Positions 57,430 through 64,000 of a DNA stretch of 64,000 nucleotides are shown here, piece after piece. Made by a program: the position numbers and the translations under genes. Source of the DNA: Anaerolineales bacterium (GTDB lineage: Bacteria > Chloroflexota > Anaerolineae > Anaerolineales > Villigracilaceae); assembly GCA_014379595.1 (NCBI GenBank), contig JACMLM010000058.1, positions 30,101 through 94,100 of the forward strand, given 5' to 3'. A model generated the notes under the pieces. It searched no databases and had not been told where the DNA came from. It was given only the letters and a program-made list of their open reading frames with translations. Each line of letters begins with the position of its first letter. Position 1 is the first letter of the stretch.

Positions 57430-57464
57430 GAGCGACGAGGTTTTCCTTGTCGCTCGTTTTCTTT
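57430..57464 (+). terminator. Intrinsic terminator after pot operon
   Basis: GAGCGACGAGGTTTTCCTTGTCGCTCGTTTTCTTT. Confidence 0.75.
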
Positions 57465-57477
57465 GTATAATGAACGT

Positions 57478-57987
57478 ATGATGAAACAATCTTTTTCCTA
57501 TCTAAATAACAAATGTGAAGCTCGCGAGAATTCTCGTGGCGGCTGTGGAGTCTTCGCGCATGAATTCATTTTCAAAGGCGAATTGATATCATTATGGGGC
57601 GGACGTATTATTCATAAAGATGAGCTAGACCCGTCCATGCCGCGCTTTACCCAGCGAGTGCTTCAAGTTGATGAAGAATTATATTTATTGACCACTGAAG
57701 AGAAAGAGTCAACTGATTGTTTTAACCATTCGTGCAATCCTAATCTAGGTCTTACTGGGCAAATTGGTTTGATCGCCATGCGTGATATTCAAACAGATGA
57801 GGAATTAACTTTTGATTATGCTATGACTGATGGTGAACCGTACGACGAATTTGAATGTCATTGCGGCTCGTTGAATTGCCGCAGGAAGATCACGGGGAAT
57901 GATTGGAAACTTCCCGAATTATGGGGTAAATACAAAGGCTATTTCTCACCATACCTTACAAGGCGGATTGAAAAAATAACCAAATGA
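57478..57987 (+). CDS. SET-domain protein (putative lysine methyltransferase)
   Basis: ENSRGGCGVFAHEFIFKGELISLWGG; DCFNHSCNPNLGLTGQIGLIAMRDIQTDEELTFDYA; post-SET-like CHCGSLNCRRKI. Confidence 0.9.
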   Translation: MMKQSFSYLNNKCEARENSRGGCGVFAHEFIFKGELISLWGGRIIHKDELDPSMPRFTQRVLQVDEELYLLTTEEKESTDCFNHSCNPNLGLTGQIGLIAMRDIQTDEELTFDYAMTDGEPYDEFECHCGSLNCRRKITGNDWKLPELWGKYKGYFSPYLTRRIEKITK

Positions 57988-60730: not shown

Positions 60731-61342
60731 ATGAAGAATGCGTTATATGCTTTACTCGGTGTGATGGCAGGTTTTGTATTGGCGGGCGTACTTGTATTTG
60801 TATCGCGCGCGCCTGCGGGTCAGTCGATCATTTTGCAGCCTGCGCCTACTGCCGCGCCCATCGCTGTGCATGTGATCGGTGCAGTGCCCCGCCCTGGCTT
60901 ATATGAATTTCCAGAAGGCGCACGCGTGCAGGATGCGATTGATGCTGCAGGCGGTATGCTTGCAGAAGCGAATGTAGAGGCGCTAAATGTTGCTGCATTG
61001 CTTGAAGATGGCCAGCAGTTGGATATTCCTTTTAATGATGGAAGCGAGCCAGCTGCAGATGACACGTCAACATTTGACCTGCCTTCCTCTGCAACCGAAA
61101 CTCCCACTGACGATTCGGGGAACAATTCGGAAGAAACGAACTCAGATGTAGAGCTTGTCAACATCAATACTGCTTCATTGGAAGAACTGGATACACTGCC
61201 TGGCATTGGCCCAACCACCGCTCAAAAAATAATTGATTATCGGGAAGAGAACGGCCCGTTTGCCACGCTTGAAGATATTATGAATGTTTCGGGAATTGGC
61301 CCTGCTACATTTGAAGAGATCCAGAATTTGATCACAACTTAA
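60731..61342 (+). CDS. ComEA-like DNA-binding protein (SLBB plus helix-hairpin-helix)
   Basis: VHVIGAVPRPGLYEFPEGARVQDAIDAAGG; VNINTASLEELDTLPGIGPTTAQKIIDYREENGPF. Confidence 0.93.
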   Translation: MKNALYALLGVMAGFVLAGVLVFVSRAPAGQSIILQPAPTAAPIAVHVIGAVPRPGLYEFPEGARVQDAIDAAGGMLAEANVEALNVAALLEDGQQLDIPFNDGSEPAADDTSTFDLPSSATETPTDDSGNNSEETNSDVELVNINTASLEELDTLPGIGPTTAQKIIDYREENGPFATLEDIMNVSGIGPATFEEIQNLITT

Positions 61343-61546
61343 TGTAGACGCTTCACGCTTCGCGTAAATTCAAGCTGGGCAGAGCAATCCTGAATCATGT
61401 ACTTTCTTTGTAACTATTCAAATGTACTTAATAAGGCTAAACTTATAGGGAAAATTAATCTTTTGCCATCTAATCCGCTGTTTAGGTGATTAGATGGCGG
61501 CCGTCTATAAGCAGAGTTATACGGCAGGTGACCGTCTAAACACTAA
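61311..61546 (+). repeat. Copy A of imperfect direct repeat: comEA 3' end plus downstream region, ending ..CCGTCTAAACACTA
   Basis: Shares TTTGATCACAACTTAA..AGACGCTTCACGCTTCGCGTAA, GAAAATTAATCTTT and CCGTCTAAACACTA with 62764-63017; contains GCCATCTAAT...ATTAGATGGC hairpin. Confidence 0.85.
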
Positions 61547-62763
61547 TTGGGCGGATATTACGGAGGCGGATTGCCATCAAACATGTTTTGTCTTATACTG
61601 AATTTTCCGTAGCTTCAACCTTTAGCAGCCATTACCAAGGAAAATATGCAACAAACTTCTTTAAATAAAAATGAACAAGAACGTCCATCTGCGCTTTCTC
61701 GTCTTTGGCGAATCCTGCGTTGGATGCCCATCACAACGATGCTATTGACCAGCGCGATCCTTTTAGTTCTTTTTCTATTAGGAGGAACAAACAAAATCAA
61801 TGGATGGTTTTTGTCGCAATTACTTACTCCTGCTTTGGGATTGATCTTCCTCGTGGTAATCATAATTTATGTTATCGTGAAGAGAAGGTTTAGCAGACTC
61901 CTGATCATGACGTTGCTGGTCGCAGTGCTCTCTTTATTCCCTATCATTCTCTTGATTAAGCCAGTTGCTTATCCAGCATCGATTGCATCTACTACACCTT
62001 CTGCCACCGTCCGTCTCCCTGCAAACGTGCCTCTGAAGGTGCTTTGGGGCGGGGATAAATTGGAGAATAACTATCATGCCAAAACTCCTGACCAGAGATG
62101 GGCATACGACCTGGGTGTGGCTCCATACTTGACTGGAAGTTCGAACTTGGAAGATTATGGTTGTTACGGGATTCCAGTGGTCGCCCCCGTGGACGGTCTT
62201 GTGACATATGCTCATGATGGGGAACCAGATATGACACCTGGGGTGCTCTCAAAAAATTTTCAGGCTCCTTTGGGTAATCATGCTGTGATCCAATTGAAAA
62301 CAGGAACCTATTTGGTTATAGCTCACTTAAAAGAGGGAAGTGTCGTTATAAAGACAGGCAATACAGTACAAGAAGGACAGGTGATCGGTCAATGTGGAAA
62401 CTCCGGTAACACGAGTGAACCCCATATCCACATTCATCATCAACGTCAGGATCCTGTTGTGTACCCAGGGGACCTTTCAGAAGGTCTACCGCTTTACTTC
62501 AGAGATCACGATGGCGCGCCAATGCCTGAAGGAGGCGGACACATGGAAGAAGATAAAGTGATTGCCACAGGTGACATAGTCAAACACATTGGTAAGTAGG
62601 TGACAATAATTTGTAGGAATTCACGCAAGCATCAATTTCAAATTCAAAACCCCTTTACAAAATCTGCCCAACAAAGTGTGTAGTGGATTTTTGGGAGTCT
62701 GCACGATTTATAAGTATTTTCTGGCTTCGAGTTTTTTCTGCTCCAAACAGAGTCCACGCCATG
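61547..62763 (+). mobile_element. Candidate integron-type gene cassette 1 (M23 peptidase cassette)
   Basis: Begins TTGGGCGGAT; attC-like R'' core GCCCAACAAAG at 62666, its complement; ends at G^TTGAAA. Confidence 0.55.
61646..62599 (+). CDS. Membrane-anchored M23 (LytM-type) peptidase family protein
   Basis: N-terminal TM segments; YGIPVVAPVDGLVTYAHDGEP; GNHAVIQLKTGTYLVIAHLKEGSVVIKTGNTVQEGQVIGQCGNSGNTSEPHIHIHHQ. Confidence 0.9.
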   Translation: MQQTSLNKNEQERPSALSRLWRILRWMPITTMLLTSAILLVLFLLGGTNKINGWFLSQLLTPALGLIFLVVIIIYVIVKRRFSRLLIMTLLVAVLSLFPIILLIKPVAYPASIASTTPSATVRLPANVPLKVLWGGDKLENNYHAKTPDQRWAYDLGVAPYLTGSSNLEDYGCYGIPVVAPVDGLVTYAHDGEPDMTPGVLSKNFQAPLGNHAVIQLKTGTYLVIAHLKEGSVVIKTGNTVQEGQVIGQCGNSGNTSEPHIHIHHQRQDPVVYPGDLSEGLPLYFRDHDGAPMPEGGGHMEEDKVIATGDIVKHIGK

Positions 62764-62769
62764 TTGAAA
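62666..62769 (+). repeat. attC-like recombination site
   Basis: GCCCAAC (R'') ... AGTGGATT (L'') ... AGTCCAC (L') GCCAT GTTGAAA (R'); L''/L' complementary. Confidence 0.55.
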
Positions 62770-63017
62770 GAATTTCAGGATTTGATCACAACTTAAAGCA
62801 GACGCTTCACGCTTCGCGTAAGCCTGTGTACGGCGATTCTGAATCATTCGTTTTCTTTGGAGCTATTCAAATATGTCTGATAGAGCTACACTTAATGAAA
62901 ATTAATCTTTGACCGTCTAACGTCCTAATTGAATTAGGCGATTCCCCTAAAGGGGACGATGTAGTTGGAACGGTCTGTCTATAGGCAGTTAGTTGGAACT
63001 GGCCGTCTAAACACTAG
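62764..63017 (+). repeat. Copy B of imperfect direct repeat, including a fragment of the comEA 3' end
   Basis: Imperfect match to 61311-61546. Confidence 0.85.
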
Positions 63018-64000
63018 TTAGCCCGCTCGTAATGAGTTTATTATTTCATGTTGCAGAAAATTCGCACCATTGCCCAGCCTGAAATTTCAAACAAACATAA
63101 GCCTCGTCTGTTTTGGCTAGGTTATTTTCAGTTGTTTCCTATTGCTTTATTAGTTGGGCATGTTCTATTTCAAGTTTTATTTTTGCGTCCGTATTATGAA
63201 AAAGTAAAAACCCAGCTTGAGATGGAGGCTAAAAATATATTAGCGCCACCTTCTGCTCAAGAGAGTACCTATGAAAGTTGGTTCACCGAATCTAACGCCA
63301 GCATCACCATAGGGTATGTTGCCAAAGATTTAGGCTTCACAGAGATTCGTCAACATTATGATGGTATCTTACAAAACAATGGGTGGCTTTACTACGATGA
63401 AAGTGATACAACAGTAAAATATTGTAAACGTGATTTTACAGCAACAATATTCTATAACGGACATGGTTTTTACCCAACTGATTACGATATCAACTTTGAA
63501 AGTGGACATGGCAGGTTAGTAAATGTTAGTGAGTGCGAGCGCCTTTATGGTCTCGGACCAAAATCACTCAACAATCTTATATCGGTATCGGTTTTCTTTA
63601 TATGGTCGTGGCTATATGGGGGTATCCTTATTTTGACCTCATTCTTTAATTATGAAATCTACTATTTCATACAAGACAGATTAGTTTATAAACATAAAGA
63701 CTTTTGGAACGCAAGAGTTAGTGGTATAAAATGGATACTAATCGGTTCTGTAAGTTTAGCTGCCATTGTCTACACTCTATTTTTCTTTGAGGTCTACGCA
63801 TGACGTTCTTAAGTCTTGTCAGTAAATCTGTTTCTTAATTAGAAACGCGGGCTAACAAAGCGTTCTCAGAAACAACATGTTTAAGAACCTCCCTGAGATT
63901 GCTATGAGATGACATAATCCATGCAAATTCAGACTAAATTGCAAACTGCAACACTAAAATCGAATAAAAATCTCACACTTGATTAAATCAAAACAGGGCG
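63018..64000 (+). mobile_element. Candidate integron-type gene cassette 2, extends past window end
   Basis: Begins G^TTAGCCCGC at 63017; GCGGGCTAACAAAGCG at 63847, perfect 10-bp complement. Confidence 0.55.
63048..63803 (+). CDS. Hypothetical membrane protein (cassette-borne)
   Basis: Long ORF with N-terminal and two C-terminal TM segments; no family recognised. Confidence 0.75.
   Translation: MLQKIRTIAQPEISNKHKPRLFWLGYFQLFPIALLVGHVLFQVLFLRPYYEKVKTQLEMEAKNILAPPSAQESTYESWFTESNASITIGYVAKDLGFTEIRQHYDGILQNNGWLYYDESDTTVKYCKRDFTATIFYNGHGFYPTDYDINFESGHGRLVNVSECERLYGLGPKSLNNLISVSVFFIWSWLYGGILILTSFFNYEIYYFIQDRLVYKHKDFWNARVSGIKWILIGSVSLAAIVYTLFFFEVYA

Follow-up and report, generated by a model that had tools for sequence, protein, structure and literature searches.

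Two consecutive genes behind a comEA-like gene in a Chloroflexota genome look like integron cassettes, and no integron integrase is encoded beside them. This raises the question of which kind of sites these cassettes occupy and how they could have arrived there. The window, that is the whole stretch of 64 kb which was analysed (G000:C71:30101-94100), belongs to an Anaerolineales (Chloroflexota) MAG of 4.47 Mb in 72 contigs, which is 95% complete. The end of the contig coincides with window position 64000. The relatives in which matches were found are Anaerolineales MAGs as well. The features discussed in this paper are summarized in Table 1. No match was obtained in an Rfam scan of the 64-kb window, and the ORF of cassette 2 has no match in Pfam. 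Further upstream (57463-57987) a small ORF of 174 aa resembles, when read by eye, a SET-domain methyltransferase, which is unusual in bacteria.

Table 1. Positions of the features at the end of the window, with the evidence for each of them.
Feature	Position	Strand	Evidence
comEA-like gene (SLBB and helix-hairpin-helix), host gene upstream of attI site 1	60731..61342	+	Pfam SLBB 7.9e-12, HHH_3 1.2e-24; conserved in relatives
Methyltransferase remnant, 5' part deleted	61343..61440	+	Alignment with G027, G023, G007
attI-type site 1, crossover A61546^T61547	61454..61552	+	nhmmer without own-genome sequences E=2.7e-14; R1 62.2 bits
Cassette 1 ORF, 317 aa, M23 peptidase domain	61646..62599	+	Pfam PF01551, 5.7e-13
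attC1, left arm and loop only	62666..62760	+	R2 model match E=1.1e-16; alignment with intact attC; no end-to-end fold
Second copy of comEA tail and methyltransferase remnant	62760..62900	+	75% identity over matched stretch; alignment
attI-type site 2, crossover G63017^T63018	62901..63022	+	nhmmer without own-genome sequences E=3.4e-25; MAG-267 intI-adjacent site alone 1.1e-16
Cassette 2 ORF, 251 aa	63048..63803	+	ORF list; Pfam search
attC2 left arm	63847..64000	+	Motif position; contig end at 64000

In the initial annotation both genes were described as delimited by matching inverted core sites. All four motifs are present at the positions given there: cassette 1 starts with A(61546)^TTGGGCGGAT and carries the R' sequence GCCCAACAAAG at 62666, cassette 2 starts with G(63017)^TTAGCCCGC and carries the R' sequence GCGGGCTAACAAAGCG at 63847. 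A bare inverted pair of 10 bp is by itself insignificant in 64 kb. The motifs nevertheless exceed chance, because an attC model made from other sites of the genome and an attI profile made without the own genome both match here.

The left ends of the cassettes had been regarded as attC ends; what precedes both cassettes are instead sites of the attI type. The 100-125 bp in front of each cassette start recur before cassettes elsewhere in the genome and in relatives, and end like GACCGTCTAAACACTAG^TTRGGC. A profile without own-genome sequences identifies exactly two places in the 64-kb window, both of which end at the cassette starts. In MAG-267 (JAEURC010000096), a member of another genus of the family, the same attI lies close to an intI gene for a full-length IntI of 328 aa, with about 145 bp between the site and the start codon. 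When this site alone is used as query both window sites are found (1.1e-16 for site 2 and 5.4e-7 for site 1; 8.8e-19 and 1.2e-10 for the window sites with blastn). The intI-bearing contig of G011 terminates inside an attI site of the same kind, and other members of the genus contain a diverged attI adjoining intI, for example CTGTATAAACACTAGTTAGGC in G016. The homology of the window-type sites spans 65-125 bp and matches the intI-adjacent site. Due to this homology to the sites of MAG-267 and G011, both pre-cassette sites of the window are, as judged from their sequences, attI-type sites. The crossover of site 1 is ATT and not GTT. Extra small palindromes, CCTAATTGAATTAGG and TTCCCCTAAAGGGGA, occur at 62919-62968 of the window, in the orphan sites of contigs C43 and C35 and partly in that of C62; they are partly or wholly absent from other attI copies. 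In a sequence titled uncultured Chlorobiaceae (CAIQGA010000170, locus L137, 4267-4337) an attC-like site is immediately followed by half an attI of this type, as though the attI were carried as a gene-less cassette, and a binning error is possible in this case.

The attC sites of the genome have the sequence GCCCAACAAAGCGTGC...GCAGAGTCCACGC...AACGCAAACCGTTRGGC. An attC model was built from eight of these sites, none of which is from the window, and was run on the genome. The covariance structure obtained with RNAalifold is poor (11 pairs), and the model works mainly by sequence. It gives 29 matches on many contigs of the genome, the weakest of which are uncertain, and it matches the window at 62666-62780 (E=1.1e-16). 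All of the 21 attC matches in the examined attI-bearing loci are located downstream of attI on the same strand. Contig C43 contains four of such matches and no intI; in the window there are a truncated attC and, of a second one, the left arm. For cassette 2 only this left arm of attC2 is visible before the contig ends at 64000. Its R' sequence GGCTAAC at 63850-63856 is complementary to the start of cassette 2. This arm is not picked up by the R2 attC model, and the remainder of the site is either not recognisable or cut off by the end of the contig. The alignment with intact attC sites indicates that attC1 has retained the left arm and the loop and has lost the right arm. An attC is expected to form an imperfect palindrome in which the R' and R'' ends pair. 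In a minimum-energy fold test, which has no z-score support and is weak overall, an intact attC of C43 folds end to end, another attC (C40) and attC1 do not. In arrays of three relatives (L205, L206, L208, L209, L102, L214 and L215 of G021, G071 and G061) the attC sites of cassettes are interrupted by a conserved sequence of about 150 bp, CCGATAAATAGGAGTGTCAAGG.... The interruption directly follows GCCTA, as might result from a short element with a preference for the left end of attC. Beside an attC-bearing array on contig C40 (L006, about 1-480) a reverse-strand frame reads by eye like an IS110-type transposase.

The stretch from 62666 to 63017, which had been taken for a single attC1 of 350 bp, is composed of half an attC, a copy of the comEA tail and an attI. 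From 62760 onwards it represents a diverged duplicate of the comEA tail, the methyltransferase remnant and the attI, with 75% identity over about 155 bp. In at least six relatives, blastn with the second copy as query points to the corresponding position. In most of the relatives checked a methyltransferase gene comes after comEA; a fixed synteny of both cassette genes, which the initial annotation had named as an argument against its own reading, was thus not found. According to the alignment both window copies share the deletion of the same 5' part of the methyltransferase gene, so the loss of this gene preceded the duplication. An origin of the second comEA tail from a species with an intact locus is not favoured, since the methyltransferase deletion is the same in both copies. 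The junction of attC1 and the second copy reads CATG^TTGAAAG. It would fit our hypothesis that attC1 recombined with a position resembling G^TT within the tail of comEA. Joining of such a comEA-tail/attI duplication into attC1 would have produced the order attI1, cassette 1, half attC, attI2, cassette 2. A comparable order of attI, cassette, interrupted attC, attI and cassette is found in G071 inside a contig of 1.96 Mb.

The window was initially supposed to contain a CALIN or the edge of a larger chromosomal array; instead of such an edge, the locus is better described as one of several attI-headed loci in the genome. The profile search of the own genome revealed eight attI matches (C43, C71 twice, C35, C62, C22 twice, C68), of which the last one on C22 and the one on C68 are weak. 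Only the two window copies are found by plain BLAST in the own genome, the other sites needed the profile. Six of the seven independent loci are situated close behind a co-directional host gene, a count which alone is weak evidence. On C43 the left flank is formed by an intact, divergently oriented gene for an ABC-transporter ATPase, and no intI separates this gene from the attI. The closed genome G021 contains six attI matches, all at least 120 kb apart from its single intact intI, and the closed genome G026 three, none of them near its sub-threshold IntI-like matches. Matches to the attI profile were detected in 48 of the 389 genomes of the order, mainly in one family, whereby the counts per genome and for the order mix orphan and intI-adjacent sites and were inspected in part. 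The plasmid and phage collections gave no blastn match to attI.

IntI proteins are encoded in 34 of the 57 genomes of the genus. In the own genome, a 95% complete MAG, no IntI above the cut-off could be identified, and none is found beside the window sites. Together with the attC matches on many contigs this agrees with the assignment of integron-type cassettes without a nearby integrase. A CALIN would have two or more attC sites in the absence of a nearby intI, and with one truncated attC and half of a second the window may or may not qualify; the term falls short, because an attI-type site heads each cassette. A complete integron would have a functional intI in cis, which the window sites lack.

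Five attI copies of G021 and three of G071 have at least about 265-277 bp in common at about 95% identity. In these copies about 35 codons of the 5' end of intI are kept with the spacing of intact integrons; the individual E-values of these matches are weak (0.02-0.3), the position is identical each time. The copies also comprise a TTGACC-17-TATAAT promoter which points toward the cassettes. The attI copies of the own genome have no detectable remains of intI, and most of them are without this promoter. That several copies in one genome have the same truncated unit in common suggests on the sequence level that the unit has spread, rather than that intI was lost independently. Because no consensus promoter precedes the window sites, the expression of the window cassettes probably depends on read-through from comEA. 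Read-through into the other cassettes of the own genome is plausible, since their loci are located close behind co-directional host genes.

The sister species G021 and G071 have two orphan sites in orthologous positions. Between the two species the left flank is 98.8% identical over 3.2 kb at one site and 96.9% identical over 3.0 kb at the other, and the attI at both sites is about 95% identical. Beyond the crossover the homology is lost, and the proteins of the first cassettes are not related to each other. Each of the two genomes carries one full-length IntI elsewhere. This turnover supports an insertion at orphan sites by an IntI which would act in trans, although homologous recombination or insertion sequences could account for part of it. 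One of the first-cassette proteins behind an orphan attI of G071 (L211, 3370-4887) has 505 aa and by eye a CHAT-type protease-like domain and pentapeptide repeats; it is possibly the product of a defence gene.

The best reading, to which we assign a fair degree of probability, is that these loci are dispersed attI landing sites which are either served by IntI in trans or were left after the loss of intI. A multi-locus integron, in which one IntI would serve many dispersed attI in trans, with cassettes behind different chromosomal genes and docking sites spread as compact units, has in our estimate not quite an even chance. The orphan sites might instead be decayed integrons, each the relic of a separate complete integron without its intI, and the cassettes frozen CALIN leftovers with an attI. 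The persisting intI codons in G021 and G071, the broken attC1 and the A^TT crossover of the window, and the lack of an IntI in the own genome would all be expected from such a decay. We regard it as rather unlikely, since one truncated unit is present in several copies per genome which are about 95% identical, two species have different first cassettes at their orthologous orphan sites, and no intI remnant stands beside the own-genome copies.

Two further explanations are given little weight. Off-target insertion of cassettes into genomes has been reported (cited in PMC12901181), and the sites of the own genome are close behind host genes, as might be the case for ordinary secondary sites (attG) with nothing but a short IntI-binding core resembling attI. 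An attG has no attI homology at the insertion point, whereas the 65-125 bp found here exceed a core and match the intI-adjacent site, and the G021 copies have in addition the promoter and the intI 5' end in common; we disfavour attG sites as very improbable. Equally slim is the chance that the assembly broke at repeats, with loss of intI and of the true attI, and that the tandem copy of the window is chimeric. The window contig indeed ends at 64000, and in relatives several contigs with intI break off a few hundred bases or less from this gene. The two window copies, however, differ at about 25% of the positions and yet have the same deletion, the comparable order of G071 is found well inside a long contig, orphan sites and intI are far apart in the closed genome G021, and the left flank of C43 is complete without an intI.

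Following the reading as dispersed landing sites, an integron integrase would have placed both window cassettes at attI-type sites without an adjacent intI. Such orphan sites are dispersed in the own genome and its relatives, with attC cassettes following on the same strand. The intact IntI proteins elsewhere in G021 and G071 most likely act on the orphan sites in trans; the arrays of the own genome would be served by an unassembled intI or be frozen. Cassette 1 is probably fixed, because the crossover is A^TT and attC1 is broken; attI site 1 at least may be dead, in view of this crossover and of the promoter that most own-genome copies lack. Site 2 retains G^TT and looks, together with cassette 2, canonical up to the contig end.

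The usual description of an integron comprises a single intI, a single attI and a single array. If several attI without intI in cis are indeed used, the capture and expression of cassettes could be distributed over the chromosome. With these sites, attI sequences also become available from a phylum that has been studied little, and the action of IntI in trans can be tested directly. Chloroflexota carrying sul4 in the context of an integron integrase were reported earlier (PMC12772301). In the freely accessible literature searched, we found no account of a chromosome with several dispersed attI sites that lack intI. The detection of attI by IntegronFinder 2.0 is limited to class 1 (PMC9024848), and current finders would therefore call these attI-headed loci CALINs or miss them.

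With complete chromosomal integrons (intI-attI-array) the loci share the attI and attC sequences, the orientation of the cassettes and, in relatives, the promoter beside attI; they differ by the absence of intI beside the sites and by several attI per genome. In a CALIN, attC sites are clustered and an integron integrase is missing (PMC9024848), and attC cassettes without intI in cis are present here as well. What sets the loci apart from a CALIN is the attI-type site at the head of each array, its recurrence at many loci, and the duplication of one block within an attC. Like attG sites, the loci place cassettes at chromosomal positions away from an integron; attG sites are without a long shared sequence, whereas the sites described here are homologous to intI-adjacent attI. 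Delta-attI-type gene cassettes are known from class 1 and class 2 integrons, and IntI1 recombines such sites (PMC12901181). They likewise contain an attI away from intI and inside a cassette array, but are mostly short attI remnants which replace attC inside mobile integrons (PMC12901181), whereas the sites described here measure 65-125 bp and stand at the head of arrays in separate parts of the chromosome.
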